From Herbidospora daliensis (GTDB lineage Bacteria > Actinomycetota > Actinomycetes > Streptosporangiales > Streptosporangiaceae), in assembly GCF_001570585.1 (NCBI RefSeq), contig NZ_BBXF01000001.1, positions 799,691 through 863,690 on the forward strand: a DNA stretch of 64,000 nucleotides, in the 5' to 3' direction. The position numbers and the translations under genes were made by a program. Positions within the stretch are counted from its first letter, which is position 1; every line of letters begins with the position of its first letter. The notes under the pieces were generated by a model, which made no database searches, was not told the origin of the DNA, and saw only the letters and a list, made by a program, of their open reading frames with translations. This document shows, piece by piece, positions 1,079 to 63,283 of this stretch.

Positions 1079-2640
1079 ACGGGGACGGCGGAGGTTCCGC
1101 GGAACCTCCGGGAGAACCCCCGTCCAGAGTGGACGATCACCCGAACGGACCGGCTGAGAGCGGACCCAGTTCAAGCACACCAGCTACGAGTGGACGGGCT
1201 GAAAGCAGACCCGGCACGAGCGAGCCGACTGCGGGCAGACCAACCGCAAGCGGAACCGGGGCAAGCAGACCGGCTGAAAGCAGACCTGACACAAGCGAGC
1301 CAACTACGAGCAGGTCAACCGCGAGCGGAGCCGGCGCGAGCAGACCGGCTGCGGGCGGACCGACTGAGAGCAGACCCGGCGCAAGCGGGCGAAACGCAAG
1401 TGAATGCGGGGCGAGCGGACCGGCTGCAAGCGGGACGGCGAAGAGCAGATCAACCGCGAGTAGACCCGGCGCGAGCGAGCCAACTGCAAGCAGACCGGCC
1501 GAGGGCGGAACCGGCGCCAGCGAGCCAACGGCAAGTGGACCGGCTGAGGTTAGCCCTGGTGTGAGCAGACCGGGCGACCTGCCCACGCCGACTACCGATC
1601 ACACAGCTGGCCAAGGTGGAGCAGCGGATCGTCCAGGCTCCCCTGGCGAAACGACACCACGGGCGGCCGGATCCGCAGCCCCGCCCGTCTCCGCACAGCC
1701 CATCGGCTCGGTATTGCGGCGAAATGTCGGGGCTCCTACTCGTCGGGCTCGTCGCGATCGGAGTGGCGGTCTGTGGGGTCTGCTCGCCGCGCCCGGCACG
1801 CTCTGGTTAGTCCTGCTGTTCGCGGTGCCCTTCTACGCCATCGCCGCCGTGGCCTTCGGTTACACCGACCCGGTCTTCAACGCGCCGGTGCCGGAATGGG
1901 ACCCCCGTTACTGGGACTTCACCGCGTTCACCGAGATCCTCACCCGGTCGGTCACCGGAGACCTGCGGCCCGTCTTCCTCCGCACGCTGCTCTACGTCGC
2001 CCTCGCCCTGGGGTTGTGCGTGGCCATCGGCTACCCGGTGGCCTACTACGTCGCCCGGCACGCCGGACGGCACCGGGCCCTGCTGCTCGGCCTGATCCTC
2101 GCGCCGTGGTGGGTGAACTACCTGACGCGCATGCTGGCCTGGCTGAACCTGCTCCAGGACGACGGCTACGTCAACGACCTGCTGCTGTTCACCCGGATCG
2201 TGGACGAACCCGTGCGCTGGTTGTCGGGCAACCCGGTGACGGTCGTGCTGGCGCTGGTCTACGGGTACATCCCGTTCTTCATCGTGCCGCTGTTCTCCAC
2301 CCTCGACCGCATCGACCCCCTGTTACTGGAGGCGGCGCGCGACCTCGGCTGTTCGGGCCGGGGCGCGTTCTGGCACGTGACGCTTCCGCTGTCGCGGCCC
2401 GGGTTGCTGACCGCGTCGGCCATCACGGCGCTGCCGATGTTCGGCGACTACTACACGAACACCCTCGTATCGGGCTCGCCGACCACCACGATGATCGCCA
2501 ACCAGATCGAGTTCTACCTGCTCGGCGGGACCCGGAAGGAACTCGGGGCGTCACTCGTGCTGCTGCTGTCGGCGCTGCTCATGGTGGTGATGGTGTACTA
2601 CCTGATCTCCAGCCGCCGGGCCGAGGAGGAGGTGTCATGA
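1075..2640 (+). CDS. ABC transporter permease (PotB type) with a long pentapeptide-repeat N-terminal extension
   Basis: Inner-membrane subunit of the polyamine-type importer. The GTG start at 1075 overlaps the stop of the binding protein (GTGA) and gives 521 residues, whereas PotB-type permeases are near 280-310. The extra ~215 residues precede the first membrane segment (LWLVLLFAVPFYAIAAVAFG, about residues 242-261) and consist of an S/T/P/G/A/R-rich stretch dominated by about 28 pentapeptide units. The remainder is a normal permease: several membrane helices and the cytoplasmic EAA loop, seen as EAARDLGCSGRGAFWHVTLP near residue 420. The last codons (GTG TCA TGA) once probably overlapped the next permease start. 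A shorter start near 1720 (for example TTG before RRNVGAPT) cannot be excluded, in which case the repeat would be an intergenic spacer that happens to be open. Confidence 0.8.
   Translation: MNGDGGGSAEPPGEPPSRVDDHPNGPAESGPSSSTPATSGRAESRPGTSEPTAGRPTASGTGASRPAESRPDTSEPTTSRSTASGAGASRPAAGGPTESRPGASGRNASECGASGPAASGTAKSRSTASRPGASEPTASRPAEGGTGASEPTASGPAEVSPGVSRPGDLPTPTTDHTAGQGGAADRPGSPGETTPRAAGSAAPPVSAQPIGSVLRRNVGAPTRRARRDRSGGLWGLLAAPGTLWLVLLFAVPFYAIAAVAFGYTDPVFNAPVPEWDPRYWDFTAFTEILTRSVTGDLRPVFLRTLLYVALALGLCVAIGYPVAYYVARHAGRHRALLLGLILAPWWVNYLTRMLAWLNLLQDDGYVNDLLLFTRIVDEPVRWLSGNPVTVVLALVYGYIPFFIVPLFSTLDRIDPLLLEAARDLGCSGRGAFWHVTLPLSRPGLLTASAITALPMFGDYYTNTLVSGSPTTTMIANQIEFYLLGGTRKELGASLVLLLSALLMVVMVYYLISSRRAEEEVS
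1153..1572 (+). repeat. 15-bp degenerate tandem repeat, about 28 units (pentapeptide x-A-S-x-P)
   Basis: In the permease frame the region reads as consecutive five-residue units such as AESRP, GTSEP, TASGT, GASRP, DTSEP, TASRP and GASEP. Position 3 is nearly always Ser and position 5 mostly Pro. The nucleotide period is 15, so no unit shifts the frame, and all three forward frames stay open across most of it. It starts 78 bases after the stop/start overlap of the two flanking genes. As protein it would be a flexible, unstructured, possibly surface- or cytoplasm-exposed tether. Confidence 0.85.
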
Positions 2641-3126
2641 CGCGACGTCCTCAAGCCACCTGGCGGACAGATCAGCGGCGACGACATTCACCGAGCCTCC
2701 CGTGAAAACAAGCTCATGACCGCAACCCAATGGGTGCGGGAGAATCTCGTCGAGCATCAGGCTTCCGAGAACCGATTCCTCCGGGCCTTTCTTCCGAAGC
2801 CTGATGTCGAATGCCCTGACATCGGTGTAACTCACTTCCAGCCCGCTGTCGTGCTTCCACTCATTGGGGCCGAAGATGATGCGCAGATGAAGTCGGCCGT
2901 CGTCCCAGAGATGCGTGTCGACCAGGGTCAGGTCCTTGACGCAACGCACATTGTAGAAGTCGTAGTGGGCGGGATCCGAGGCGAACTCCCGGGCACCAGG
3001 AGGAAGATCCGCTTCGAGCCGGGGAAGTGCCTGAAGGTAGTCGACGGCACTCACCAGGAATCCATAGGGATCCGCCTGCCGCTCGACCTTGATGAATTTC
3101 ACTGTTCGACACATCCCGTCTACCAC
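2635..3126 (-). CDS. Hypothetical protein inserted between two permease genes
   Basis: I do not recognise the family. The 163-residue product (GTG at 3126; an ATG at 3114 gives 159) is soluble, mixed alpha/beta by composition, with no signal peptide or membrane segment. Segments such as YDFYNVRCVKDLTLVDT and LRIIFGPNEWKHDSGLEV suggest a small compact domain of the immunity-protein or DUF type, which is a guess. It runs against the transporter operon and its base composition is visibly lower in G+C than both neighbours, which argues for transfer. Its stop codon is the complement of the palindromic TCATGA that also holds the stop of permease 1 (2635-2640), and a second TCATGA (3217-3222) starts permease 2. 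The insertion therefore sits exactly in the former permease junction. Confidence 0.65.
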   Translation of the reverse strand: MVDGMCRTVKFIKVERQADPYGFLVSAVDYLQALPRLEADLPPGAREFASDPAHYDFYNVRCVKDLTLVDTHLWDDGRLHLRIIFGPNEWKHDSGLEVSYTDVRAFDIRLRKKGPEESVLGSLMLDEILPHPLGCGHELVFTGGSVNVVAADLSARWLEDVAS

Positions 3127-3218
3127 TTGGCATCCGGCCGACCAGTCTTCCGCATGAATTCGATCGCCTTGTTCATGTCCTGCGCTCGAAACCCCGGCCC
3201 AGCCGGAGAGGAGATCTC

Positions 3219-4049
3219 ATGAGACGGCGCCCGTGGGTGCTCGCGTCGGTGACGTGGGCGTATGTCGTGTGGTCGCTGGTGCCGATCCTGGTGGCGATCC
3301 AGTTCTCGTTCAACGACGGCCGCTCGCGCAGCACCTGGCAGGGCTTCTCCCTGCAGTGGTACTTCGGCTCGTCCGGTTCGGTGGCCGAAGACCCGTCGCT
3401 ACGGCTGGCCCTGATCAACAGCCTGACGGTCGCCGGCCTCACGACGTTGATCGCCACCCCGCTCGGGGTCGCCACGGCCCTCGGCCTGGCCCGCTGGCGA
3501 GGCCGCACGGGCCGCGTCGTCGGCGGACTGACCCTGCTGCCGCTGGCCACCCCCGAGATCGTGATGGGCTCGGCCCTCTACCTGGTCTTCACCAACCTCT
3601 ACCTGTTCGTGCCACTGGGCCAGCCGGCTCAGATCATCGGTCACGTGACGTTCTCCGTCTCGTACGTGGTCGTGATCGTCCGCTCCCGGCTGGCGTCGAT
3701 CGGCACCGACTACGAGGAGGCAGCCCGCGACCTGGGCTGCGGTCGCCTGTCCGCCGTCCGGCTGATCCTGCTCCCCCTGCTGACCCCCGCGGTGTTCGCC
3801 GGCGCGATGATCGTCTTCGCATCGTCCATGGACGACTTCGTCATCTCGGCGTTCCTGTCCCCCGACGCGTCGTCGGTGACCGTCCCCATCAAGCTCTACA
3901 GCGCGGTACGAAACGCGCCGACCCCCGCACTGAACGCACTCGCGACGCTGCTGGTATTCGCTTCACTGGTGGCGTTGCTGCTGGGCTGGCTGGTGCAACG
4001 TCGAATGCCCCGGCAGGACGGCATCCCCGCTCACCTGCGCGGCCGGTAG
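3219..4049 (+). CDS. ABC transporter permease (PotC type)
   Basis: Second membrane subunit of the polyamine-type importer, 276 residues, normal length for PotC. It has about six hydrophobic segments starting with WVLASVTWAYVVWSLVPILV, and the conserved cytoplasmic EAA motif appears as EEAARDLGCGRLSAVRLILL near residues 167-186. The downstream MDDFVISAFLS segment is typical of PotC/PotI proteins. The ATG at 3219 has a good ribosome site (GGAGAGGAG) upstream. In related operons this start overlaps the stop of the first permease by ATGA. Here 578 bases holding a reverse-strand gene separate them, and a remnant that would read M-T-R-R-P after the first ATGA resembles the M-R-R-R-P start of this gene. 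The 3' end overlaps the convergent gene ending at 3963 by 87 bases. Confidence 0.88.
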   Translation: MRRRPWVLASVTWAYVVWSLVPILVAIQFSFNDGRSRSTWQGFSLQWYFGSSGSVAEDPSLRLALINSLTVAGLTTLIATPLGVATALGLARWRGRTGRVVGGLTLLPLATPEIVMGSALYLVFTNLYLFVPLGQPAQIIGHVTFSVSYVVVIVRSRLASIGTDYEEAARDLGCGRLSAVRLILLPLLTPAVFAGAMIVFASSMDDFVISAFLSPDASSVTVPIKLYSAVRNAPTPALNALATLLVFASLVALLLGWLVQRRMPRQDGIPAHLRGR

Positions 4050-4727
4050 GAAAGCGTGCGAGAGACCGGTTCTGTCCGGGACGACGATGAGGTCGTCGGG
4101 TTTCAGCCAGCCACCCGGCACGAATCGACGAAGCTGACCCGCCAGATATTCGCCGAATTCATGGTCGGGCGGCAGTCGGCGCCACTGAGCGAGAAGGCGG
4201 GCAGGAGCTTCGAGGATGTCGTCGCTGTCCTCCAGCTCGACGTAACGGTCGACGAGACGGGGCAGTTCGTCCCAGACTTCGTCGAACCGCCTCAGCGCGA
4301 TCTTCGCGGCGACCGCATACTCCCAGGCCAGCAGGTAGCGCCACACCAGATCACGTTCAGCGAACCACGATTCGCTCATGCCGCCGAAATGGCCGATGGC
4401 CTCTTCGTGCATGCCGGCCGAATAGCAGAGCTCGATCACATGGAAACGCGCCCAGGGGTGACCCGGATCCCGGTCGAGGGTGTGCCGGAACTCCGCCATC
4501 GCCTCGCGACGGAGCGCGAAGCCGGTCGTCCACGACAGATAGAGGGCGAAACCACGAAGGTAGTGAGCCTCGGCATCATCCGAGCTGGATTCGAGCAGTT
4601 CTTCGGTCAGTTCCAGGGCGGCGCGCAACGTCGACGGCGAGCGGTCGTTCTCGGCCTCGCCGAGCGCGGCCAGCGCATGGTCGTGCAGCGACGCGAGGTC
4701 GGTTCCGTGCTCACGAAGCGGATCCAT
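3963..4727 (-). CDS. TPR-like helical protein of unknown function
   Basis: The 254-residue product is almost wholly alpha-helical with paired helices that look like tetratricopeptide repeats (for example AHYLRGFALYLSWTTGFALR and WARFHVIELCYSAGMHEEAI). It is probably a small scaffold or adaptor; no catalytic motif is visible. The ATG at 4727 is preferred because GGGAGA lies six bases upstream; the frame is open further upstream but lacks a ribosome site there. The start lies 17 bases inside the end of the upstream imine-reductase-like gene, so the two are coupled. The stop is 87 bases inside the convergent permease gene, an unusually long tail overlap, and the last ~28 codons (Q/H/P-rich) may be an extension read through the permease 3' end. 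Confidence 0.6.
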   Translation of the reverse strand: MDPLREHGTDLASLHDHALAALGEAENDRSPSTLRAALELTEELLESSSDDAEAHYLRGFALYLSWTTGFALRREAMAEFRHTLDRDPGHPWARFHVIELCYSAGMHEEAIGHFGGMSESWFAERDLVWRYLLAWEYAVAAKIALRRFDEVWDELPRLVDRYVELEDSDDILEAPARLLAQWRRLPPDHEFGEYLAGQLRRFVPGGWLKPDDLIVVPDRTGLSHAFLPAAQVSGDAVLPGHSTLHQPAQQQRHQ

Positions 4728-5571: not shown

Positions 5572-5716
5572 GCCACGACCTTACAAACCGCCACCGACAC
5601 TCCCAGCCGCAGTAACCCGCCCGGCGCACCCCCAGCTGAGCCGAACGAGACCGACAGCGCCAAAAGAAGGGAGCCCACTCCAGCTCAGGCCCGGTCATCC
5701 GGACCCGCCGCGCCGC

Positions 5717-6300
5717 TCCACCGACCGCGCGATGACCAGCCACGGGATCTCGCTCGCACCCTCCCGAATGCGGTCCACGCGTAACTACCGCTCCATCACG
5801 CTCAGGCGATCACGTGCCTGAACCCCACTGCTGAACACCTCGCTGGTGCTGTCTCCGATGCGGTCCCCCGTGTAACTCCCGCAGATACCGTTGGCCCCTC
5901 GCCACTCCATCGACCGCGCGATAAGCAGCCGCTGAATCTCACGCGTGCCCTGGCAGGTACCGTTCCGCAACGCTCAGGCATCACCTGCCTGACCCCCGCC
6001 ACTCCATCGACCGCGCGATAAGCAGCCGCTGAATCTCACGCGTGCCTTGGCAGGTACCGCTCCGCAACGCTCAGGCATCACCTGCCTGACCCCCGCCGCT
6101 ACAACAACCGCGCGACAAGGAGCCGCTGGATCCCGCTCGCGCCCTTCCGCAGATACCGATCCGCTACGGTCGGCCGACCACTTGTCTGCCGCCGCGCTGC
6201 TCCATCGACCGCGCGATATTCGGCCGTTGGATCCCGCTCGCGTCCTCCCGGCACAAACCGCTCCGCCGCGCTCAGGCGATCACCTGTCTGACCCCCCGCC
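5717..6300 (-). repeat. Degenerate tandem repeat derived from the acyl-CoA dehydrogenase 3' end
   Basis: This gene-free stretch holds repeats anchored on TCCATCGACCGCGCGAT or a decayed form at 5717, 5906, 6003, 6100 and 6201, with the parental sequence at 6303 inside the dehydrogenase gene. Spacings are 97, 97, 101 and 102 bases; between 5717 and 5906 a further partial copy is recognisable at about 5834-5900. The copies at 5906 and 6003 differ at only about two positions. On the minus strand a unit reads S/R-E-I-Q-R-L-L-I-A-R-S-M-E-W-R-G, the conserved C-terminus of acyl-CoA dehydrogenases, then a decayed stop region. The array lies downstream of the gene stop (6272) and upstream of the next gene. 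Periods are not multiples of three and no full gene survives. Confidence 0.88.
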
Positions 6301-7435
6301 GCTCCATCGACCGCGCGATGATCAATCGCTGGATCTCGCTCGTCCCCTCCCAGATACGATCCACCCGCAGCTCACGCAGATACCGTTCCGCCACGTTGGT
6401 CCGCATGTACCCCCTCCCCCCGAACGTCTGCACCGCCCGGTCGGCGCACCGCCACGCCGCCTCCGACGCGAACAGTTTCGCCAGCGACGCCTTCGCGTGC
6501 ACGACCTTCCGGTCCACCCCCGCATCGGCCAGCGCCGCCACTTCGTACACCATCAACCGCGCCGCCGCCGCGTCAGCAGCCGAGTCGGCCAGCGGAAAGG
6601 CCACACCTTGGTGGTCGAGAAGCCGCGCCCCGCCTTGTTCGCGTTCGAGGGCCCAGCCCACGGCCTCCTCCAGCAGCCGCCCCATCGCCCCCACGCAGTG
6701 GGCCGCTATGCCCAGCCGTTCCTCGACGAACCAGTTCTGCTGCAACGCGTCGGCCCGCCCGAGCCCGCCGAGCACCGCCTCATCGCCGACCAGCACCCCG
6801 TTCAGGTGCAGGGTCGGATGCCCGTGCGGGAACGAGTGGGTGAACGGCGGATCGTCCAGGTATTCGACCCCGTCGGCCTCCGCGTCGACGAGGAACAACG
6901 TCGGCCCGTGTCCCTCGACCAGGGCCACCACGATGTGCACAGCCGCCACGTCACCGCTGGTCACGAACCATTTCTCGCCGTCGAGCCGCCACCGGCCGCC
7001 CACCCGCTCAGCCACGGTCGAGATGCCCGACGGATCGGAGCCTGCGTATTCTTCGGTCACCGCGTAGGAGACCCACCCCTCGCCGAGCAGGGCGGGCCGC
7101 AGGTAGCGGGCGATCTGGTCAGGCGTACCGGCGGACAGGACGTTGTAGGCGTCGGGGACCCACCACCACAAACCGTTCGTGTTGCGCCCGAACTGCTCGT
7201 GCACCACGACGTAGTCGGTCGCCGACCAGCCCTGGCCGCCGTGCTCCACGGAGTGCCGGCCGCCGTTGAGCCGGGCGGCCAAGGCCGCTTTCATGATTTC
7301 GCCCACGTCAGAGGAGGGCAGGCGCCCGCCGGCCCGTTCGGCCGACTCCTCCCGTGGAATCAGCACCTCGTCGACGAAGGCTTTCGCGCGGGCGCGCAAC
7401 TCGATCTGTTCGTCCGACAGCCGTATCAGCGACAT
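6272..7435 (-). CDS. Acyl-CoA dehydrogenase family protein
   Basis: FAD-dependent alpha,beta-desaturation of an acyl-CoA, 387 residues. Substrate-loop motifs YAVTEEYAGSDPS and WFVTSG are present, and the C-terminus carries the FAD-contact and catalytic region IWEGTSEIQRLIIARSM, in which the Glu before Gly-Thr is the general-base position of short/medium-chain enzymes. The ATG at 7435 is chosen because GGGGAGA lies five bases upstream; a longer frame begins at 7474 but would overlap the operator at 7456-7473. It follows the TetR gene on the same strand but has its own palindrome in the 59-base gap, so it is probably transcribed separately under TetR control. Its 3' end has been copied several times into the downstream intergenic DNA. 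The exact substrate is unknown. Confidence 0.88.
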   Translation of the reverse strand: MSLIRLSDEQIELRARAKAFVDEVLIPREESAERAGGRLPSSDVGEIMKAALAARLNGGRHSVEHGGQGWSATDYVVVHEQFGRNTNGLWWWVPDAYNVLSAGTPDQIARYLRPALLGEGWVSYAVTEEYAGSDPSGISTVAERVGGRWRLDGEKWFVTSGDVAAVHIVVALVEGHGPTLFLVDAEADGVEYLDDPPFTHSFPHGHPTLHLNGVLVGDEAVLGGLGRADALQQNWFVEERLGIAAHCVGAMGRLLEEAVGWALEREQGGARLLDHQGVAFPLADSAADAAAARLMVYEVAALADAGVDRKVVHAKASLAKLFASEAAWRCADRAVQTFGGRGYMRTNVAERYLRELRVDRIWEGTSEIQRLIIARSMERRGVRQVIA

Positions 7436-7455
7436 GTCGCTCTCCCCACGATCCC

Positions 7456-7473
7456 TGACTGGCGACCCAGTCA
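7456..7473. promoter_or_regulatory. 18-bp palindrome, likely TetR operator before the acyl-CoA dehydrogenase
   Basis: TGACTGG and CCAGTCA arms (7 bp, perfect) flank CGAC. It sits 21 bases before the dehydrogenase start and shares the TGACTGG half and following GACC with the palindrome at 8184-8201, implying the same TetR protein binds both. Confidence 0.65.
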
Positions 7474-7494
7474 AATCGGGGAGCGATCACCCTG

Positions 7495-8130: not shown

Positions 8131-8173
8131 CCGGCAACTCTACCCCAGCACCGCCTCGCGTTGACGACCCTCC

Positions 8174-25938: not shown

Positions 25939-28900
25939 TTACGTGCGGGTGACGAAGTCGGCCAGCATCCTCACCCGGTCGGCGTGCTTGTCGTGGGCGA
26001 TGATGATGGGCGGCTCGTTGTAGGCCATCGCGTCGGACGACCTTCGCAGCTTCACGTACTGGCCGCACGCGTCGATGGCGTAGGGTTCCATGTCGTCCTG
26101 GAGGGCGCCGATCACGGTGATGCCGTAGGTCTCCCCGATGCGCCGGAACAGGGCCACCGCCTCGCGGCGGTGCTCCTTGCCGAGGTTGCGGCCGAGCTCG
26201 TCGAGAACCAGCGTCAGGTGCTTGCCCCCGCTGGAGGCGATGGCCGCCGCGCAGACGAGCTTGACCGCCTTCTCGTCCATCAGCGCCGTGTTGGCCCGCC
26301 GGTTGTAGGGCACGAACCCCTGCCCCTCACCGCGCTTCCACTTCGGGATCACCCGCCACGACCAGCGCTGCTCCGGATCGGCCGGGGCGGCCGGGACGGG
26401 GAAGTCGAGCGAGGCGCCGTAGCCGCCGTAACCGGTGTCGAGCCGGTCGAACTCCTCGGCCACCCGGGTCAGCCGCGCCCGGATCGCCTCGGTGAGGGTC
26501 GCCCGGTGCACGGCGGTCGACTGGGCCGCCTCCTCGGCTCCGCGCGTGGCGGCGGCCAGGTCGCGCCGGCGGGTGGTGATCTGGGTCTCGATCTGGCGGC
26601 GCTGGTGGCGTTCGTACTCCTCCTGCGCGCGCAGGTAGGAACCGAGCGCGTTGCACACGGCCTGGAAGGTGGCCAGCTCCTCGGCCGCCCGCCCGTCCTT
26701 GCGGGCGGCGATGAGGTAGCCGAGCTCCTCGGGCATCTCGTCGCCGTCGTCGAAGGTGCCGCGCAGCGCGGCGTCGAGATGGCGTTCGGCGGCCCGCCAC
26801 CACTCGTCGGCGGTCAGCTCGTCGTCGGCGAGCCACTCCTGCGCGCCCTCGACGGTCCCGCCCCAGTCTCTGACGAGCCGGTCGAGCCCGAGCGCAGTCC
26901 GCTGGGCCTCGATCCGGGCCGCGCCCGCGCGGGCCTCGTCGCGGCGCGCGGTCAGGGCGTGGCGGCGGCCGTCGAGCCGATCGGCCTCGACGTCGCGGGT
27001 GCGGGCCCTGAAGTCGAGCGCGCCGACCTGCTCCTCGGCGGCGTCGAGCGCCGGGGTGAGCTCCCCGGCGGCGGCGGTCAGCTCGGTGAGCCGCTCCCGC
27101 TGGGCGTCGAGCCGGGTGGCGAGCTCGGCCAGCCGGTCGGCGGCCTCGGCCCCCTCGACCCGGCGCTCGGCCTGGGCGACCCCGTCTTCGGCCCGCCGCA
27201 CCGCCGAGGCGGCGGCCTCCTGCGCGGCGACGGCCCGCTCGACGCGTTTGGCGGCGGCCTTGAGACGCGACTCCCGCCCGGTGACCTGCGCCTCGGCGAT
27301 CCCGACCACGGCCACTCCGGACGAGGAGACCACGACCGAACCGGGGAAGGCGGCCAGGGCCTTGGTTGCGGCGTCCATGTCGGCGGCGTCGACCACCACG
27401 GCATCACGGGCAGCGGCGTCACGGGCGTGCTCCGCGGCCGGCGCCGTGCGGACAGCCGCACCGCGGGCCTGACCGGGGCCGCCACCGAGCGTGGCCGGTC
27501 GGGCGGAATGGACGCCATCGCGGGCCTGACCGGGGCCACCACCGACCGCATCGGCAGCGAGCATGGTCCGCCCAGCGGAGTCGACGCCATCGCGGGCCTG
27601 AACGGGGCCACCACCGACCACGTCGGCAGCGAGCGTGGCCGAGCCGGCGGAGACGACGCCATCGCGGGCCTGAACGGGGCCACCACCGAGCGCGTCGGCG
27701 GCGAGCGCGGTCGGTGCGGCGGCCTGGAAGCCGTCGCGGGCCTGAACCGGGCCGCCACCGACCGCGTCGGCGGCGAGCGTGGCTGGTGCGGCGGCCTGGA
27801 AGCCGTCGCGGGCCTGTTCCGCGACGTCCAAGGCGTCGAGGAGGCCGGCGGCGGGGATGCCGGCCAGGCCCAGCGCGGTGAGCTGGACGGCGGCCGGTCC
27901 GTTCTCGGCGTCGCTGAGGGCGGCCTGGGCGGTCTCGTGTTCGCGGTCGGCGACGCCGAGGGCCTTGAGTGCCTCGGCGTGGACGGTCCGGGCTTCGGCC
28001 AGTTCGGCGCGGGCCTGGGCCGGGTCGCGGCCGTCGGCCCTGCGGCGCTGCTCCTCCAGGGCGGGGATCTGGGCGCGGAGCTGGTCGGCGGTGTTCTGGG
28101 CGACCGCGCGTTCGGCCTCGACGCGGGCGGCGCTCGCCTGGGCGGCGGCCAGCTCGCGGCGGGCGGTGGCCAGGGCGCGGTCGAGGGAGTCGTCGCGCAG
28201 GGCGGCGATCTCGGCCTTGACCTCGGCGATGGCCGACTCGGCCGTCTCGGCGGCGGCGTCGAACTCGGCGCGCTGCGCGGCCAGGGTGCCCTCGGCCTCC
28301 GCGGCGTCGGCGACGCGGCGGGCCAGGCGGCCGCGCCAGTGTTTCAGGGCGTCGGCCAGGCGTTCACGAGCCTTGTCGCGGCGGTCGAAGGCGGCCAGCA
28401 GATGGCGGGACTCGTCTTCGAACTCGGCCAGGCGCCGCTGGGCGTCTTCGGCCCTGACCCGTTTGGCGTGTTCGTCGCGGCGGGCCTCGCGTTCCTGGTC
28501 GAGCTCGGCGTCGAGACCGGTCAGGGCGGCGATAGCCTCGAAGATGCGGTCGGGCGAGATCTCGTTCAGGGGCTGGGAGAGCAGGTTGGTGGCGACCTTG
28601 CTGCGTACCGACGTGGAAAGGAAGGAAACGCACCTGACGCGGTCGCCGTAAAGGACCCGGGTCAGGTCGCGGGCGACGACGTCACGCCGCCCGGCGCTCT
28701 TGGGCAGCCCCGACCAGATGACGTCGGCATGGGTGACCCGCTCGGCCTCGGAGGCGGCGGTGGCCAGGTGCACCCCCTCGGCCCACCGCACCTCCAGGTG
28801 AGGAGCCTCCTGGTTGACCCGCACCCAGACGGTCACCGGCATGCCGGCGGACGGCACGTCGAAGACCCCGACGATGTACCCGTGATCGGCGCTGGCCCAC

Positions 28901-29277
28901 TGCTGGTCGCCATGGGCGGCCAGCTCGGCGTTGAACAGCAGTTCGGAGACGGCCTTCGCCCCCGAGGCGAACCGCCACTGCTCGTCACCGAGCAACGCCG
29001 TGATCGCGGCGATGAACGACGACTTCCCGGCCCCGTTGGAGTCCTTCGGCCCGGCCCCCGCGACGACGACGAGCGTGCCCGGCACGATCGGGACGGTGTG
29101 GGTCGAAAGCCGCGAGATGTTGACGGCTTGGAAGGCCACCAGCACCCGATCGCCGACGACGTTGTCCTGCGCCGCCCGAACGGGCCGCACATCGTCGATC
29201 GGCACGACGACCTGGAACAACCCGGAGGCCCCGGGCTCGCCCGGCTTGTCCCCGCTCAGATCGACGACCTCAGTCAT
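25939..29277 (-). CDS. SMC-like ATPase of an MksB/JetC-type condensin
   Basis: 1112 residues from ATG 29277, which has GAAGGG seven bases upstream and matches the natural start better than an ATG 12 codons earlier. N-terminal ATPase half with an unusual P-loop GPKDSNGAGKSS (about 76-87), long charged coiled coils (roughly 270-470 and 640-950), a central hinge-like segment, and a C-terminal Walker B LTLVLDELGRNLG (Asp about 1026) preceded by SSGGK. This is the ABC/SMC architecture of DNA-loop-extruding condensins. No Rad50 zinc hook is present. About 130 residues next to the hinge are a tandem repeat. It is the third component after kleisin-like and winged-helix proteins; no JetD-type nuclease gene follows. 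Confidence 0.78.
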   Translation of the reverse strand: MTEVVDLSGDKPGEPGASGLFQVVVPIDDVRPVRAAQDNVVGDRVLVAFQAVNISRLSTHTVPIVPGTLVVVAGAGPKDSNGAGKSSFIAAITALLGDEQWRFASGAKAVSELLFNAELAAHGDQQWASADHGYIVGVFDVPSAGMPVTVWVRVNQEAPHLEVRWAEGVHLATAASEAERVTHADVIWSGLPKSAGRRDVVARDLTRVLYGDRVRCVSFLSTSVRSKVATNLLSQPLNEISPDRIFEAIAALTGLDAELDQEREARRDEHAKRVRAEDAQRRLAEFEDESRHLLAAFDRRDKARERLADALKHWRGRLARRVADAAEAEGTLAAQRAEFDAAAETAESAIAEVKAEIAALRDDSLDRALATARRELAAAQASAARVEAERAVAQNTADQLRAQIPALEEQRRRADGRDPAQARAELAEARTVHAEALKALGVADREHETAQAALSDAENGPAAVQLTALGLAGIPAAGLLDALDVAEQARDGFQAAAPATLAADAVGGGPVQARDGFQAAAPTALAADALGGGPVQARDGVVSAGSATLAADVVGGGPVQARDGVDSAGRTMLAADAVGGGPGQARDGVHSARPATLGGGPGQARGAAVRTAPAAEHARDAAARDAVVVDAADMDAATKALAAFPGSVVVSSSGVAVVGIAEAQVTGRESRLKAAAKRVERAVAAQEAAASAVRRAEDGVAQAERRVEGAEAADRLAELATRLDAQRERLTELTAAAGELTPALDAAEEQVGALDFRARTRDVEADRLDGRRHALTARRDEARAGAARIEAQRTALGLDRLVRDWGGTVEGAQEWLADDELTADEWWRAAERHLDAALRGTFDDGDEMPEELGYLIAARKDGRAAEELATFQAVCNALGSYLRAQEEYERHQRRQIETQITTRRRDLAAATRGAEEAAQSTAVHRATLTEAIRARLTRVAEEFDRLDTGYGGYGASLDFPVPAAPADPEQRWSWRVIPKWKRGEGQGFVPYNRRANTALMDEKAVKLVCAAAIASSGGKHLTLVLDELGRNLGKEHRREAVALFRRIGETYGITVIGALQDDMEPYAIDACGQYVKLRRSSDAMAYNEPPIIIAHDKHADRVRMLADFVTRT
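27463..27830 (-). repeat. 72-bp in-frame tandem repeat inside the SMC-like gene
   Basis: Units anchored on GCGGGCCTG occur at 27463, 27520, 27592, 27664, 27736 and 27808: one spacing of 57, then exactly 72 four times. Each 72-base unit encodes 24 residues of the pattern A-R-D-G-(V/F)-x-x-A-x-x-x-x-L-A-A-D-x-x-G-G-G-P-x-Q. The insertion sits at about residues 480-610, beside the hinge, and keeps the frame. Confidence 0.88.
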
Positions 29278-29902
29278 CCCACGCCCTTCTCGAACCGACC
29301 AACCCGAAGACATACCTGCGACCGGCCCCCATCACGGGAACCAAACCGCCCGCGACCGGCGCCGGTCGGCGGCCACATGGCCACCTTGCCGGAAACTCGG
29401 CACAACGACGCGGCGTGCGTTGGACACCCGCGGCGTCCCCTGGCCGCAAACACCGCGCATTGCGCATCGCGCTTCCCCGGCCTGGGCCACTGGCTCGTGG
29501 AGCCCCTCGGTCCGAAGCACCGCGCATCATGCTTTCCGGCCAAAGCCGACGGCTCCTGGCGCCCACGGCCAAAAGCGCCGCGCATCGCGCTTCCCCGGCC
29601 AAAACGCCACGCATCGCGCTTTCCCGGCCAAGACGCCACGCATCGCGCTTTCCCGGCGGGGCCACCAGTTCGTGCTGCTCCCCGACCGGAACCCCGCGCA
29701 TCATGCTCCCTGCTCCAAGGTCACCGGCTCGTGCCGCTCCCCCGCCACCACTCATCGCGCTTCCTCGCCCAAAGCCAACCGCTCGTGGCGCTCCCCGGCC
29801 AAAAGCGCCGCGCATCGCGTTTACCTGGCCAAAACGCCACGCATCGTGCTTCCCGACCAGAGCCGACGGCTCGTGCCACTCCCCCGGCCATAGCACCCGC
29901 AT
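29270..29902 (-). other. Open frame spanning the JetB-like/JetC-like junction (210 codons), probably not a gene
   Basis: ATG overlaps the stop of the upstream winged-helix gene (TGATG) with GAGGA six bases before it, and the stop overlaps the SMC start (ATGACTGA). These are all the marks of a coupled gene. Against it, the interior is made of 29- and ~57-base repeats that change phase, so repeat copies are translated in different frames (compare HDAWRF and AMRGAF from the same DNA), and the product is a Gly/Arg/Met-rich low-complexity sequence. I regard it as a repeat-filled junction that remains open mainly because of high G+C, possibly translated to keep coupling. Confidence 0.3.
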
Positions 29903-29940
29903 CAGGCTTCCTCGGCCGGGGCCTGCGGCTCGTGGCGGCG
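29464..29940 (-). repeat. Tandem copies of the JetB-like gene 3' end
   Basis: On the plus strand units begin GCATC(G/A) at 29464, 29524, 29582, 29611, 29640, 29698, 29752 (TCATCG), 29812 and 29841; the parent is 29899-29937 within the gene itself. The unit at 29841 aligns without gaps to the gene end (about 27 of 39 bases identical), including the CGGCTCGTG block that encodes R-H-E-P near the protein C-terminus. Long units are ~54-60 bases and short ones 29. On the minus strand each unit carries a GGGAAGC-nnn-ATG-like string, resembling the ribosome site and TGATG of the original gene junction. Confidence 0.85.
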
Positions 29941-31053
29941 GCGTTTCGCCCTGATGGCCACGGCCAGGGGCGTCTGGGGGCCGGCCGCGAGGATGAGCTC
30001 CTCCTGGAGCCGTGCCCGGGCCGCGCGCGTCAGCCGGTGGAACTGGGGGCCCGGTACGTAGCCGCCCGCGCCCTCCTCGTTGGTCTTCTGCTGGGCGATC
30101 AGGCCCGCCTGCCGCAGGGAGCGGAGCGCGGCTTCCAGTTCGCCGATGGGCAGCAGGGTGCGGCGGCGTAGTTCCTCGGTCGCGACCGGGTACTGCGACA
30201 ACCAGGTGTCCTCGCCCAGCAGGCCCTCGGCCCGCGGGATCGCCACCGAGTGGACCAGCACCAGCGCCAGCACCGCCCGTTCGGCCTCGGGCAGGGAGGT
30301 GGCCCGGTAGGCGTCGGTGTAGCCGGAGATCCAGGCGTCGCGCCGTTGCTGCAGCACCCGGCCCCGGCGGGCCAGCATCTCCATCAGCGCCCGGCGCAGG
30401 GCGGGGTCGCGCAGAGCGGCGAAGCGGGCCTCGTGGACCGGCTCGGCCGCCGTCTCGACCGCCACGAACGCGGCCACCAGTTCGGCCCGCCGCCGCTCGT
30501 CGAACGCCCCGAGCAGGTCGGCGAACTCGTCGGGGCCCTCGTCGCGGGCTTCGACGACGGGGGTCAGCTCGCCCGATGGCGGGGGCGCGGCGATGCGGCG
30601 CATCAGTTCCCGTAGCTGGACGTGGCCGTCGGCCGTCCAGAGCACGCAGCGCGGCCCGAGCCGGAGGGTGCCGAACCCGGACAAAACAATCCAGCCGGTG
30701 TCGTGGAGCCGCCGCAGCGCGCCCACGGCCCAGCTGCGCACCGAGTCGTCGGTGCGCCCGACCATCGTGCGGTAGCAGGCGAGCACGTCGTCGACCGCCG
30801 CCCACACCCCCGGCCACGGCTCGGCGTCGAGGTCGGCCCAGCACATGCGCAGGCAGCAGGCCAGCACCCGCCGGGTCTCCCCCGCCCGCTCCACGGGCGC
30901 GGCGGCGATCTGGTACTCCTCCAGCAACGAGGGCGACGCCCCGTCGGGCCACACGGGCACCCCGACCTCGCCGACCCGGACGAACCCCGGCGGCACCGCC
31001 CCGGTCAGCGCGACCAGCCCGGTCGACCGCGCCTCGGCATGCGCCTCACCCAT
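29902..31053 (-). CDS. Winged-helix (JetB/MksE-like) component of the condensin operon
   Basis: 383 residues, soluble, helical. The C-terminal third (PIGELEALRSLRQ-type segment LPIGELEAALRSLRQAGLIA) is a clear winged-helix, and the N-terminal segment with SVRSWAVGALRRLHDTGWIV is a second one, consistent with a KITE-type protein that binds the kleisin and SMC head. Assignment rests on position, size and two winged helices rather than on a recognised family signature. The ATG at 31053 has no ribosome site; it overlaps the stop of the upstream 170-codon frame (ATGGGTGA), so translation may depend on coupling. The last 13 codons seed the downstream repeat array. Confidence 0.62.
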   Translation of the reverse strand: MGEAHAEARSTGLVALTGAVPPGFVRVGEVGVPVWPDGASPSLLEEYQIAAAPVERAGETRRVLACCLRMCWADLDAEPWPGVWAAVDDVLACYRTMVGRTDDSVRSWAVGALRRLHDTGWIVLSGFGTLRLGPRCVLWTADGHVQLRELMRRIAAPPPSGELTPVVEARDEGPDEFADLLGAFDERRRAELVAAFVAVETAAEPVHEARFAALRDPALRRALMEMLARRGRVLQQRRDAWISGYTDAYRATSLPEAERAVLALVLVHSVAIPRAEGLLGEDTWLSQYPVATEELRRRTLLPIGELEAALRSLRQAGLIAQQKTNEEGAGGYVPGPQFHRLTRAARARLQEELILAAGPQTPLAVAIRAKRRRHEPQAPAEEA

Positions 31054-31558
31054 GGAACCGGCCCGTCACACCACACCCGCTCCGACCGGCCACCACCGCG
31101 CCACGACCCGCAGCCCGGCCGAAGACCGTCGCGTCACAACACCGGAACCGCTCAACCGGCCGCAGATCCCCATCAGCCCGACCCAGGATGACCGCCCGGC
31201 CACGGCCCGCAAACTGCCCGACCGGCGCCGGGCGCTCATCGACCCGGCTCAAGATCAACGCCTCACGACACGCGGCCCGGCCGAAAGCCTCCCCGTCACA
31301 GCCCGCAGACCGCCCGACCGACACCGAACGCTCGTCAACCCGGCTCAAGATCACCGCCTCACGACACGCGGTCCGCCCGGAAGCCGCCCGGTCACGGCCC
31401 GCAAACCGCCCGGCCGACACCGGGCGCTCATCGAGCCGGCTCAAGATCACCGCCTCACGACACGCGGCCCGCCCGAAAACCGCCCGGTCACGGCCCGCAG
31501 ACGGCCCGGCCGGTGCCGGGCGCTCGTCTGCACGGTCGAAGACGGCCCCGTCATCCAT
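31046..31558 (-). CDS. Candidate 170-residue repeat protein between condensin genes
   Basis: The frame starts with ATG overlapping the stop of the kleisin-like gene (ATGGATGA), preceded by GGAG seven bases upstream, and stops inside the start of the winged-helix gene (ATGGGTGA). Thus it fills the junction exactly. It consists of four 32-residue units of the pattern DERPxxxGxxAGRDRAxxGR followed by AxCREAVILSR; the DNA period is exactly 96, so frame and sequence are kept, unlike the downstream array. It contains repeated Cys and many Arg, with no known domain. Third-position G+C is lower than in the neighbours, which weakens the coding case. It could be a small basic accessory factor or a decayed in-frame linker. 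Confidence 0.4.
   Translation of the reverse strand: MDDGAVFDRADERPAPAGPSAGRDRAVFGRAACREAVILSRLDERPVSAGRFAGRDRAASGRTACREAVILSRVDERSVSVGRSAGCDGEAFGRAACREALILSRVDERPAPVGQFAGRGRAVILGRADGDLRPVERFRCCDATVFGRAAGRGAVVAGRSGCGVTGRFHG
31150..31550 (-). repeat. 96-bp tandem repeat between kleisin-like and winged-helix genes
   Basis: The string GCTCAAGATCA recurs at 31247, 31343 and 31439, spaced exactly 96; decayed units are visible at about 31150 and at 31535 immediately after the kleisin-like stop. The period is a multiple of three. Confidence 0.88.
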
Positions 31559-32768
31559 CGGTTCGCTCCAGCCTGCCGTGGGACAACCAGCTCGGGTGGC
31601 CCGAAGGGTCGGCCGACAACGTGTCGGACCAGGCCAGCCGGTAGGGCGCCTCCGGGTGCAGGTCGGCCGAGGCCAGGTCGGCGAGCACGCGGCGGATCGT
31701 CGACCAGTCGCCCCGCAGCACCTCTTCCAAGGCCACCGTGTCCCGGTCGCCGAGCAGCGACTCGGCCACCTCCGTGAAGCGGCCCGGCGCGTTCGCCGCC
31801 AATGACGACGACGCGCCCTCGTCGGGCAGGGCCGAGCGTGGTGGTGCGGGGCGGACCGGAACGGGGCGGGGGGCCTCGTCGACCGCGCGGACGATCGCGG
31901 CCGGGTCGTGCCAGGGCGCGGCGGCGTCGAAGACGAAGCCGTCGAGGACGGCGGCGAGGCGTTCCCTGGTCGCCGTCTGGGCGAAGGTGCGCCACGTCTC
32001 GGCCGGGAGCAGGGTCAGGTTGCGGGTGGTGCCGGCCGAGTCGGCCAGGCGGCCGGCGGCGCGGCGGGAGGCGTCGCTGTAGGCGTAGATGGCCGAGCGG
32101 AGGTCGGTGCAGACGCGGTCGAGGTCGGGCCAGCGGGTGAGGATCGTGGTGTGCAGGCTCTGGGCTCTGCGGGCGATCTCCTCGGTGCCCCACAACTTGG
32201 GGGCCTGTTCGCGCAGTTCCTCGATGGTGCCGGTGGTCAGGGTGACGAGTTCGAGGGCCCACAGGCGGAAGGCGCGGGCCAGCATGTCGGCCGAGCGGCG
32301 GGCCTGTTCCATCGTGGTGCGGGGGCCGGCGACCGTGAGGTCTTCGAGGGCGAGCAGGCGGTGCATCTCGCTCTGGCCGCCGTCGTCCATCATGCGGCGG
32401 ATGAACATCAGGCCGACGACCGAGGTGAACGACGCGCGGTAACGCAGCTGGTTGGGCTTGGGGAACACCTCACGGATCGCGCCGAGGCCGCGCAGCACGC
32501 GGAGCCGGTTCTCGAACTGCTCGACCGGATGGGCGCGGCAGGCGTGGCGCATCTGCTCGTGGGTCAGCCACTCCTCGCCCGCCTCGGCGAACGCCGCGAA
32601 CAGGGTCTCGGCGATGTCGACCAGGGCGGGGTCGTCGACGACGGCGCCGCTGTCGCGGGCCAGCGCGGCGAACATGCGGCGGTAGGTGACCAGCACCGCC
32701 TCGTCGGACAGCGCCGAGTCGAGCGTCTCGGGTAGCACGCGCCCCACCGTAGGGCACCCCTCCGACAT
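31551..32768 (-). CDS. Kleisin-like (JetA/MksF-like) component of the condensin operon
   Basis: 405 residues. An N-terminal winged-helix-like region (WLTHEQMRHACRAHPVEQFE then NRLRVLRGLGAIREVF) is followed by a long helical middle (SEMHRLLALEDL to RAAGRLADSAG) and a C-terminal part with a P/A-rich linker and a last helical domain (TEVAESLLGDRDTVALEEVL). This order resembles JetA/MksF kleisins that bridge SMC heads. The family itself is not one I can name. ATG at 32768 has no ribosome site; GTG at 32747 with GGAGGGG nine bases upstream is a good alternative. First gene of the operon, 22 bases from the divergent glycosylase-like gene. Confidence 0.6.
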   Translation of the reverse strand: MSEGCPTVGRVLPETLDSALSDEAVLVTYRRMFAALARDSGAVVDDPALVDIAETLFAAFAEAGEEWLTHEQMRHACRAHPVEQFENRLRVLRGLGAIREVFPKPNQLRYRASFTSVVGLMFIRRMMDDGGQSEMHRLLALEDLTVAGPRTTMEQARRSADMLARAFRLWALELVTLTTGTIEELREQAPKLWGTEEIARRAQSLHTTILTRWPDLDRVCTDLRSAIYAYSDASRRAAGRLADSAGTTRNLTLLPAETWRTFAQTATRERLAAVLDGFVFDAAAPWHDPAAIVRAVDEAPRPVPVRPAPPRSALPDEGASSSLAANAPGRFTEVAESLLGDRDTVALEEVLRGDWSTIRRVLADLASADLHPEAPYRLAWSDTLSADPSGHPSWLSHGRLERTDG

Positions 32769-56444: not shown

Positions 56445-56447
56445 CGG

Positions 56448-60243: not shown

Positions 60244-60334
60244 GCGCCGCACCCTAGCCGCGCCGGGCGACAAAACGTGCAAGATCACAAAGAGGGCCCG
60301 GGGTTCTGTCGGTGTGACGTGCCATACTCGCAGC

Positions 60335-63196
60335 GTGGTGGGCCGAAAGACACAAACCGGGCTTGTCGGGCGCGGGTTCCAACTCGACCGGCTGTCCCGG
60401 GTGCTCGACGCCGCGACCGGGCGGATGGCCGGGGTGGCGCTCGTCGGCGGCGACGCCGGCATCGGGAAGACCCGCATCGTCTGCGAGCTGAGCGAGATCG
60501 CGCGCGAGCGCGGATTCACCGTCCTGGTCGGGCAGTGCGCCGAACTGGGCAACGCGCTGCCCTATCTGCCGCTCGCCGACGCGCTGCGCAGCGCCGATCT
60601 CCGGTCGGCGCTCGAATCGCGGCCGGTGCTGCGGCGGCTGCTGCCGGGCGCCGACCCCGACGGGTCCGACGCGCTCAGCGGCGCGCTGGCCCAGCAGCGG
60701 CTGTTCGGGGCGACGCTGAGCCTGCTGGGCGAGCTGGCCGACGAGCGGCCGGTGCTGATGGTGTTCGAAGACCTCCACTGGGCCGACCACTCGACGCGCG
60801 ACCTGCTGGTCTTCCTGACCCGCATGCTGCAGCGCGAGCGGGTGGTCCTGGTCGGCACCTACCGGACCGACGACCTGCACCGCCGCCACCCGCTGCGGCC
60901 GGTGCTCGCCGAGCTCCAGCGGCTGCCGCTGGTCGTGCCGGTCGAGCTGCCGCCGCTCGACGACGAGGCGATGGCGACCCACCTGACCGCCCTCGGCGGC
61001 GGCAACGCGGGCCTGATCGGCGGGGTCGTCGGGCGGGCCGGCGGCAATCCGTTCTTCGCCGAGGAACTGCTCCAGGCCGCGTCGAGCGGCGACCGGCTGC
61101 CGGCGACGCTGGCCGACCTGCTGATGGCCCGGGTCGAGGGGCTGTCCGACACCGCCCAGCAGGTGCTCCGGGTCGCGGCCGTGGCCGGGCGGCGGGTCGA
61201 CCACGACGTGCTGCGCGCGGCGGCGGGGCTTGCCGACCGGCCCCTCGAGGAGGCGCTGCGCGAGATCGTCTCGCGCGGGCTGCTCACCGTCGACCAGCAC
61301 ATCGGCTACGACTTCCGCCACGCCCTGCTCCAGGAGGCCGTCTACGACGACCTGCTGCCGGGCGAGCGCACCCGCCTGCACATGACCTTCGCGGCGCTGC
61401 TGACCGAGTCGGGCGGCCGGGCGGCCGAGCTGGCCCACCACTACTCTGCCGCCCACGACGTGCGGGGCGCGCTGATCACCTCGCTGGAGGCGGGCCTGCG
61501 GGCCACCCAGATGGGCGCCCCGGCCGAGGCCAACCGCCACTTCGACCGGGCGCTCGAGGTGTGGGAGCAGGTGCCCGACGCCGACGCGCTCACCGGCACC
61601 ACGCGGGCGCGGCTGATCCTCGACAGCGCCGCGGCGGCGGCCGACAGCGGCGACAACCACCGCGCCATCGCCCACCTGCGGCGGCTGCGCCAGCTCGTCA
61701 CCGAGCCGCTGCTGGTGGCCGAGACCAACGAGCGGCTGGCCTGGTACCAGGCCGACGGCGACGACTTCCACGGCATGGCCGAGGCGGCCCAGGCGGCGGT
61801 CGACGCCGTCGACGACGGCCCGGAGACGCCGCTGCTGGCCCGCGCGCTGGCCACCCACGCCCGCACCCTGTGGATCGCCGAGCGGGTGACCGACGCCCAG
61901 GAGGCCGCCGCCCGCGCGCTCGAGGTGGCGCGGCGCACCGGGTCGATCGAGGCCGAGTCGGCGGCGCTGGTGGCGCTGGGCATCCAGCAGGAGTCGCTCG
62001 GCGACCCCGACATGGCCGAGGAGCTGCTGTCGATGGCGGCGGCCAAGACGTCGGGGTCGTTGTCGATGGACCTGCGTGCCCATTTCAGCCTTGCCCGGCT
62101 GCAATACGAGCGGGGCGACCTCGACGCGGCGGCCGAATCCGCCGAGGCGGGGTTGCAGGTGGCCCGCGAGAACGGCCTGATGTGGAGCACGTTCGGCACC
62201 GACCTGCGGTTCCTGCGCTACCTGATCTCGTTCGCGGCCGGCGACTGGGACGCCGCCGAGAAGCGGGCCGCGATGTTCGGCGTCCGGGTCGGCACCCCGC
62301 CCGAGGCGCTTTTGTCGTCGTTCGCCCTGTTCGTCGAGGTCGGCCGGGGACGGGCGGTGGCGGCCGAGCGGCTGCGCTGGCTGGAGCCGTTCTGGGGCGC
62401 CGACGACCTGGTGACCTACATGACCCGCGGCATGGCGGCCGAACTCGCCCTCTGGAAGGGCGACCCGAAGGAGGCCCTCGGCCACGTCGACGCGGTCGTG
62501 GCCGTGCAGCAGCCCTACGACTCGGGCCTGATCCGCATCTCGGCGGTCGGCCTGGCCGCCCTCGCCGACCTGCCCCCGGGCGACCCCGCCCGCGAACGCG
62601 GCGACGAGTTCATCGAACGCGCCCGCTACGCCGCCACCCACGGCCCCACCGGCCCGTGGACCACACTCGGCCCCGAGGGCCGCGGCTGGGCGGCCCGCGC
62701 CGAGGCCGAATGGCACCGCTTGTCCGGCACCGCCACCCCCGAGGCGTGGGAGAAGGCGGTGACCGCCTTCGACGGCGGCTTCCCCTACGAACAGGCCCGC
62801 AACCGCTGGAGGCTGGCCGAGACCCTGCTCGAAGCGGGCGACCGCGACCGCGCCCGCGCCGAGTGGCGGCAGGCCGTCGAGGTGGCCGACCACCTGGGCG
62901 CCGCCCCCCTGCGCCACGCCCTCGACCTCCTGGGCCGCCGCGCCCGCTTCACCATGCCCGACACGACCGAACCGGAACGGGCGAGCGTGCTCGACACCCT
63001 GACCGGCCGCGAACGCGAGGTCCTGGCCCAGGTGGCCGCGGGCCGCTCCAACCGCGAAATCGGCGAACGCCTGTTCATCAGCCAGAAGACGGCGAGCGTC
63101 CACGTCTCCAACATCCTGGCCAAACTCGGCGCGGCGACCCGCACCCAGGCCGCCGCCATCGCCCACCAGGAAGGCGTCACACCCCCCACCGACTGA
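60335..63196 (+). CDS. LuxR-family ATP-binding (LAL/MalT-like) regulator
   Basis: 953 residues. N-terminal AAA/STAND domain: Walker A GGDAGIGKT (38-46), Walker B VLMVFEDLHWAD, then TPR-like helical repeats over the middle 500 residues, and a C-terminal LuxR helix-turn-helix LTGREREVLAQVAAGRSNRE followed by IGERLFISQKTASVHVSNIL. A signal-gated transcription activator. GTG at 60335 or 60338; a CATACT -10-like box at 60322-60327 places the transcript start at the GTG, so it may be leaderless. Divergent from the SWIM operon, which it could control. Confidence 0.9.
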   Translation: MVGRKTQTGLVGRGFQLDRLSRVLDAATGRMAGVALVGGDAGIGKTRIVCELSEIARERGFTVLVGQCAELGNALPYLPLADALRSADLRSALESRPVLRRLLPGADPDGSDALSGALAQQRLFGATLSLLGELADERPVLMVFEDLHWADHSTRDLLVFLTRMLQRERVVLVGTYRTDDLHRRHPLRPVLAELQRLPLVVPVELPPLDDEAMATHLTALGGGNAGLIGGVVGRAGGNPFFAEELLQAASSGDRLPATLADLLMARVEGLSDTAQQVLRVAAVAGRRVDHDVLRAAAGLADRPLEEALREIVSRGLLTVDQHIGYDFRHALLQEAVYDDLLPGERTRLHMTFAALLTESGGRAAELAHHYSAAHDVRGALITSLEAGLRATQMGAPAEANRHFDRALEVWEQVPDADALTGTTRARLILDSAAAAADSGDNHRAIAHLRRLRQLVTEPLLVAETNERLAWYQADGDDFHGMAEAAQAAVDAVDDGPETPLLARALATHARTLWIAERVTDAQEAAARALEVARRTGSIEAESAALVALGIQQESLGDPDMAEELLSMAAAKTSGSLSMDLRAHFSLARLQYERGDLDAAAESAEAGLQVARENGLMWSTFGTDLRFLRYLISFAAGDWDAAEKRAAMFGVRVGTPPEALLSSFALFVEVGRGRAVAAERLRWLEPFWGADDLVTYMTRGMAAELALWKGDPKEALGHVDAVVAVQQPYDSGLIRISAVGLAALADLPPGDPARERGDEFIERARYAATHGPTGPWTTLGPEGRGWAARAEAEWHRLSGTATPEAWEKAVTAFDGGFPYEQARNRWRLAETLLEAGDRDRARAEWRQAVEVADHLGAAPLRHALDLLGRRARFTMPDTTEPERASVLDTLTGREREVLAQVAAGRSNREIGERLFISQKTASVHVSNILAKLGAATRTQAAAIAHQEGVTPPTD

Positions 63197-63198
63197 AC

Positions 63199-63283
63199 CG
63201 CCGTCGTCGATGCGGGCCCGCTCAGCCGCTGAGGTCCCGCGCGCCGTCGTTGATCCGGGCCGCTGAACCGCTGGGGTTCGCGC
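63199..63283 (+). repeat. Two ~43-bp repeats right after the LAL regulator stop
   Basis: GCCGTCGTCGATGCGGGCC and GCCGTCGTTGATCCGGGCC start successive units (period 43), each followed by a CGCTGA-(G/A)-like string. The block CTGAACCG that contains the gene stop (63194-63196) recurs at 63263-63270, so units appear to include the gene end. Confidence 0.6.

Follow-up and report, generated by a model that had tools for sequence, protein, structure and literature searches.

Introduction

Judging from the parts of the sources available, the rnc–fpg1 junction is 1–54 bp long in other mycobacteria, and in the tuberculosis complex it carries 279–358 bp of direct repeats that vary among strains (PMC2734929). 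Mycobacterial interspersed repetitive units (MIRUs) insert at start codons, and an open reading frame (ORF) within the unit stays coupled (PMC12548453). Bacterial satellites are unique arrays, sometimes clustered, with periods mostly divisible by three (PMC6749651). The subject here is a set of six tandem-repeat arrays (arrays 1–6) in a 64,000-nucleotide stretch of Herbidospora daliensis, called the window (contig NZ_BBXF01000001.1, positions 799,691 to 863,690). No account of these arrays was found in the open-licence literature of PubMed Central.

The arrays are probably ordinary tandem duplications, filtered by selection and then decayed. Two of them descend from the end of a neighbouring gene, repeat periods within genes keep the reading frame, arrays avoid gene starts, and at the array sites examined the array is missing, or the stretch much shorter, in six related species.

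The H. daliensis genome (G000) comprises 8.52 Mb in 18 contigs, with a 72% GC chromosome. Six Herbidospora relatives were compared, one genome per species, with species names inferred: H. sakaeratensis (G004), H. solisilvae (G005), H. galbida (G002, including locus L004), H. yilanensis (G006), H. mongoliensis (G003) and H. cretacea (G001). H. sakaeratensis is the closest by one operon gene (gene B, below) and its flanks, and is 94.4% identical to H. daliensis across 543 kb of chained alignment.

Gene-end copies and reading frame

Tandem Repeats Finder (TRF, minimum score 40) reports head-to-tail copies at one site for each of arrays 1–5, with the periods that the original prediction gave; array 6, which it also listed, amounts to just two imperfect copies of ~43 bp, seen by direct alignment and unreported by TRF. 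That prediction further placed five arrays exactly at a gene end or stop/start overlap, which is true only loosely: array 1 is contained in a permease's N-terminal extension, and array 3 falls midway along a long gene. Its statement that two arrays are built from a neighbour's own 3′ end stands for arrays 2 and 4, narrowly so for the latter, when the best local score of each array is set against 1000 shuffles.

Array 2 (5708..6357, minus strand; TRF 5895–6357, 97 bp, 4.7 copies, 79% matches) consists of ~97-bp units that are degenerate copies of the last ~86 nt, plus TGA, of an acyl-CoA dehydrogenase gene (6272..7435, minus strand; Acyl-CoA_dh_1, 1e-43), with a local score of 84 against a shuffle maximum of 34. 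The array DNA alone matches the 3′ end of this same gene in all six relatives, and the array itself is absent from all six. Array 4 (29462..29900, minus strand) fills the spacer between genes B and C of a three-gene operon with units of 29/59 bp and looser further copies (TRF 29462–29603, 59 bp; 29566–29657, 29 bp). It is related to the 3′ end of gene B (score 35, shuffle maximum 32), and the spacers of L002 and L004 hold, by reading, shorter versions of it. Duplicated gene ends recur in the genus, as had been claimed: L131 of H. cretacea has one partial copy of the acyl-CoA dehydrogenase end right after the stop (score 47, maximum 29), and the H. galbida spacer between genes A and B holds a degenerate copy of its own gene A end (score 72, maximum 29).

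Arrays 1, 5 and 6 have no such origin. Shuffles reach the gene-end score in 146/1000 trials for array 1 and 621/1000 for array 6; for array 5 they reach the gene A end score in 371/1000 and the gene B start score in 379/1000.

Within genes, the arrays respect the frame. Array 1 (1193..1535, plus strand) is made of in-frame, 15-bp based repeats with higher periods of 75 and 45 bp, encoding a stretch rich in Ser, Pro, Ala and Thr (TRF 1193–1351, 75 bp, 2.1 copies; 1320–1388, listed period 15; 1444–1535, 45 bp). Measured from anchor to anchor, its site spans 703 nt in H. daliensis against 97, 166, 196, 226, 46 and 82 nt in the relatives. All seven lengths equal 1 mod 3, so the permease frame has been maintained through every length change. 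Array 3 (27486..27816, minus strand; TRF 72 bp, 4.6 copies) is an in-frame 72-bp (24-codon) repeat in the middle of gene C, and its site measures ~430 nt between anchors against 47–239 nt in the six relatives.

Placement across the genome

The genome-wide sample covered 2.06 of the 8.52 Mb of H. daliensis (C1, 1.26 Mb including the window; C2 and C3, 0.4 Mb each) and 0.7 Mb of H. sakaeratensis, with genes called by a simple home-made script, not curated annotation. Arrays were kept at a TRF score of at least 130 and a period of at least 9 (25 rows on C1; 26 when shorter periods are included). Of 71 arrays, 29 lie inside called genes; the 42 others became 32 after removal of ten TRF rows at C2:313–327 kb, identified as CRISPR by direct reading.

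That region (C2:313000–327000; L169, L170) contains two CRISPR arrays of period ~61, with repeats near GTCGGCCCCGCGCCTGCGGGGATGGTCC and GGACGATCCCCGCGGGTGCGGGGCCGAC, which TRF lists as tandem repeats.

The period is divisible by three in 29/29 intragenic arrays, in keeping with the earlier claim that frame is preserved inside genes, and in 19/32 of the rest, some of which (arrays 1 and 5 among them) sit in uncalled open frames. Enrichment at 3′ ends was not found: ten of the 32 non-intragenic arrays lie at most 60 bp away against 8.4 expected (P 0.31), and six overlap one against 6.1 expected. Gene starts are depleted, with two arrays at most 60 bp away (14.2 expected; 0/500 placements as low) and none overlapping a start (10.9 expected). 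As many as 22/32 are closer to a 3′ end than to a start (12.4 expected; 0/500 as high). With the window excluded, 8/28 are near a 3′ end, 2/28 near a start and 19/28 closer to the 3′ end. Arrays shun gene starts, and there is no attraction to gene ends.

A search of the last 150 nt of each gene against the next 500 nt, too strict to detect array 4, found a strong downstream copy of a gene's own end (score at least 48) for 2/819 genes of H. daliensis C1 and 2/483 of H. sakaeratensis; the control of gene starts against upstream sequence gave 0/819 and 0/483. Two of the four copies occupy corresponding places in both genomes (C1 940890, C8 340360). At a score of at least 45, ends against upstream sequence gave 4/819 and 8/483, starts against downstream sequence 4 and 7, and ends against downstream sequence 2 and 2; the higher control counts presumably reflect neighbouring paralogues. 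When each array's overlap with the gene is masked, just three of the 32 beat the control maximum against the adjacent gene end: arrays 2 and 4, and one from H. sakaeratensis (262502).

These counts do not uphold the original prediction of a genome-wide process that multiplies gene ends. Random placement relative to genes had been named as what would refute it, and this describes the data in part: 3′ ends show no excess, and the avoidance of starts is non-random. Gene-end placement in one window need not extend to the whole genome.

Age and site specificity of the copies

Mean pairwise difference between copies is 0.138 in array 5, 0.173 in array 3, and 0.173 and 0.222 in the two parts of array 1; individual copies of these arrays differ by 8–24%. 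Fourfold-site divergence between H. daliensis and H. sakaeratensis is about 0.13 overall (0.132 including the out-of-frame row 25939–27380, ~0.139 without it), ranging over 0.041–0.326 in 17 window genes and 0.117–0.166 in genes A, B and C. Since copy divergence approximates species divergence at fourfold sites, the copies would date from roughly the time of the species split, and decay under neutrality would be enough. Hypermutation of the copies was considered and is unneeded, given that mean divergence in arrays 1, 3 and 5 is close to the fourfold value.

Array-only DNA of arrays 1, 2, 3 and 5 was compared with the seven genus genomes, and among the at most 40 candidates scored per genome the arrays are not dispersed: each occurs at its own site, and array 2 also at its source gene end. 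Other matches are short, weak pieces (E ~1e-5 to 1e-3), as were all those found elsewhere for array 4 in a flanked search. Rfam reports nothing at gathering scores within the window.

Indels of at least 50 bp opposite a near-empty partner site number 16 in H. daliensis and 19 in H. sakaeratensis. Younger arrays are also present. In H. sakaeratensis, one with a 69-bp unit at 96% overlaps both 3′ ends of a convergent gene pair, and another has a 74-bp unit at 98%; H. daliensis has one at 96% (C2:100468).

The A–B junction

Array 5 (31192..31525, minus strand; TRF 96 bp, 3.5 copies) separates genes A and B in H. daliensis with 96-bp units. Between anchors, this junction ranges from 6 to ~510 nt across the genus. 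L005 has a bare overlap, ATGGGTGA, in which the gene A stop and gene B start stand together. By reading, four loci from other genera of the family also have a stop/start overlap here, so the overlap is probably the ancestral state. The two genes of L002 likewise overlap, with nine bases more and, upstream, an incomplete copy (ATGGGT). L006 has a 19-bp step between two exact copies of ATGGGTGA. The spacer is flanked by ATGGGTGA and GTGGGTGA in L004 and L007, by ATGGCTGA and ATGGGTGA in L003, and by ATGGATGA and ATGGGTGA in H. daliensis. These flanking copies fit the expected outcome of a duplication across the overlap, which would leave both genes whole; because the upstream copy also forms the final codons of gene A, it should be conserved anyway. 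The last 34 bp of the H. daliensis spacer score 46 against L003 and 21–26 against the other five (no shuffle control), a match suggesting that part of the spacer predates the split from H. sakaeratensis and was lost or shortened there.

Array 5 is traversed by a 170-aa open frame (31046..31558, minus strand) that overlaps both the stop of gene A (ATGGATGA) and the start of gene B (ATGGGTGA). The other two same-strand frames hold 12 and 7 stops, and on the opposite strand two of three frames are open too. Third codon positions vary least between the array copies (0.085, compared with 0.132 and 0.191 at the other two), the reverse of the pattern under coding constraint. The frame is thus probably not a constrained gene, and the third-position pattern and open opposite-strand frames leave its candidacy as a conserved protein unsupported.

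It is possible, though doubtful, that tight operon junctions are recurrently split by duplication across the ATGNNTGA stop/start overlap. Such a route would be self-repairing: each event would leave a stop and a start intact and, where the length fits, would place a new coupled open frame between the two older genes. Just as tentatively, the seven species might offer a snapshot of that route, from the bare overlap (L005) through the 9-bp lengthened overlap (L002) and the 19-bp spacer (L006) to the ~500-nt spacer with its 170-codon frame (H. daliensis). The genus offers a graded series of one junction, which could help to show at what point translational coupling is lost.

Proposed mechanism and rival explanations

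Under the favoured explanation, unrelated, locus-specific duplications would arise by ordinary replication slippage or unequal recombination, and the copies would afterwards diverge through point mutation and gain or lose units. Survival would be set by selection: within genes only periods divisible by three would persist, and near starts almost none. A duplication spanning a stop codon would be harmless, the first copy preserving the gene and its stop and later copies being mere spacer; gene-end arrays such as 2 and 4 would then need no special-purpose machinery. Where a stop and a start overlap, copies of that overlap on either side of a spacer would likewise preserve a stop and a start, both intact, and the A–B junction is consistent with this. 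Slippage or recombination as the molecular step, like neutrality, is inferred. This suggests that tightly packed operons would gain spacers through ordinary, harmless duplications and without any special element.

Several observations weigh against so plain a reading. Some copy pairs differ by up to 0.236, above the mean species divergence, and would be older than the split or faster-changing. C1 holds 25 arrays, five of them in the window, which is therefore above average; five within 31 kb is a mild excess (P = 0.06 for random placement of 25 positions). Three of the five clear arrays lie in one operon, H. galbida is the longest among the relatives at all three operon sites (239, 317 and 187 nt), and repeat runs with TRF scores of 101–194 occur within or near gene B at two of the four other-genus loci (L195, L196); the operon region may have a special property or be a hot spot. 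Genes with out-of-frame repeats may be under-called, flattering the 29/29 figure, and the placement counts come from a test whose random placements were allowed at most 50% coding sequence, whereas the limit for the real arrays was 90%.

A dedicated genome-wide process copying gene 3′ ends into the downstream spacer is quite improbable. It would explain arrays 2 and 4, the copies in L004 and L131, the four end copies against no start copies among 1302 genes of two genomes, and the position of 22/32 arrays closer to a 3′ end; but such copies are rare, two of the four stand at corresponding places, 3′ ends are not enriched, arrays 1, 5 and 6 are not end copies and array 3 is mid-gene. Very improbable is insertion at stop/start overlaps by a mobile element of MIRU type whose own small ORF keeps translation coupled. 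Its appeal comes from the A–B spacer, which lies between two ATGGGTGA copies or one-base variants in five of seven species (H. daliensis, L003, L004, L006, L007) with a bare overlap in L005, from a 577-bp insert between potB and potC flanked by GAGGAGGTGTCATGA / GAGGAGATCTCATGA, and from the available part of a review, in which MIRUs insert at start codons and carry an ORF that is coupled (PMC12548453). In the searches of the seven genus genomes the array sequences are, however, not dispersed, and the L006 spacer adds only 19 bp. An open frame with both overlaps is seen in array 5 only, and that frame shows no sign of coding constraint. Target-site duplication or a mobile element as a general signature was rejected: terminal repeats exceed the null 99th percentile in 3/16 insertions of H. 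daliensis and 1/19 of H. sakaeratensis, and array 5 scores 14.

Functional spacers are unlikely, whether a longer junction were to uncouple the downstream subunit's translation or tune it, or a small protein were encoded in array 5. The 170 open codons beside frames with many stops speak for them, as does the report, in the part of the source available, that longer rnc–fpg1 repeats go with higher fpg1 mRNA in Mycobacterium tuberculosis (PMC2734929); the stable third codon position, the two open opposite-strand frames and a junction that varies from 6 to ~510 nt within the genus speak against. Assembly artefact is scarcely credible. The assembly has 18 contigs and the arrays are read from the assembled sequence alone, but mis-assembly does not produce copies that differ by 8–24% (arrays 1, 3 and 5), and H. 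sakaeratensis and L004, which were assembled separately, carry their own repeats.

Surrounding genes and other repeats

Arrays 3, 4 and 5 belong to an operon on the minus strand. Gene A (31551..32747, a home-made gene call) has no Pfam or NCBIfam match and shows 75–84% tblastn identity at the four other-genus loci. Gene B (29902..31053), without a Pfam or NCBIfam match at E 0.001, has relatives in six records, all from Herbidospora, at 91–97% identity in a search of genome contigs. Gene C (25939..29277), which holds array 3 near its middle, encodes a long SMC-like ATPase with weak SMC-like model matches only. A solved-structure search gave proteins C and B two matches each, all with E above 0.05 and to unrelated or designed proteins. 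PADLOC returned three weak, partial matches on the operon, the best (7.9e-6) to mad3, and none for gene A, so the operon is assigned to no named defence system; a Wadjet-type identity is our own unconfirmed presumption. Gene B matches occur in 48/120 family genomes, often in two pieces split near residue 165, and L195 has 42-bp repeats at that split.

On the plus strand, a PotD-like solute-binding protein gene (83..1078; Pfam SBP_bac_8, 3.8e-23) has a stop overlapping the next start (GTGA), that of the PotB-like permease ORF (1075..2640; BPD_transp_1, 4e-12, residues 319–515). The repeat-built N-terminal extension of this ORF holds array 1, and its top match, NCBIfam PotB, falls under that model's cut-off. 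The 577-bp insert (2641–3218), of lower GC (0.59), breaks the potB/potC ATGA junction. Its borders (score 20; null 99th percentile 18) are near-copies of the sequence comprising the ribosome-binding site and ATGA, and its 163-aa minus-strand frame has no Pfam match. L116 (G002) starts, by reading, with an insert that resembles it.

A LuxR-type regulator gene and a cupin gene flank array 6 (63197..63283, plus strand), a site at which the nearest relative has 34 bp less. At the array's edge, ~40 bp at the start of the cupin gene (63290–63345) match 1–6 places per genome in six of the seven genus genomes, on both strands and with its own site counted, as a small dispersed element or a shared regulatory site.

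Elsewhere in H. daliensis, C3:49038–49327 (L176) repeats a 14-bp unit perfectly, in 20.7 copies with 100% matches, and is likely a hypervariable site. Two huge adjacent genes (~25.5 and 34.0 kb; C1:160267–219803) contain in-frame 21-, 42- and 63-bp repeats and are presumably modular synthases.

Comparison with known systems

As in the rnc–fpg1 repeats (ETR-F / variable number tandem repeat locus VNTR3239), a short junction has been expanded by direct repeats in one lineage. Those repeats are described as exact, with strain variation and expression measured, whereas the Herbidospora copies are degenerate and known from one genome per species (PMC2734929, as far as the available part goes). Bacterial satellites share unique, unrelated arrays, clustered in Clostridium difficile, and a predominance of periods divisible by three; gene ends are not singled out in the available part of their description (PMC6749651). 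MIRUs share 40–100 bp units and may share a position at start codons or operon junctions and an ORF through the unit that can keep coupling; in the same partial view of the sources they occupy 41 scattered locations, in contrast to Herbidospora, where each site has its own sequence (PMC12548453, PMC2734929). The view that no described element has these properties therefore gives way, several of them being shared by MIRUs and mycobacterial spacer VNTRs. The Herbidospora arrays belong to a known kind of tandem repeat, with the rnc–fpg1 spacer repeats and MIRUs as their closest parallels.

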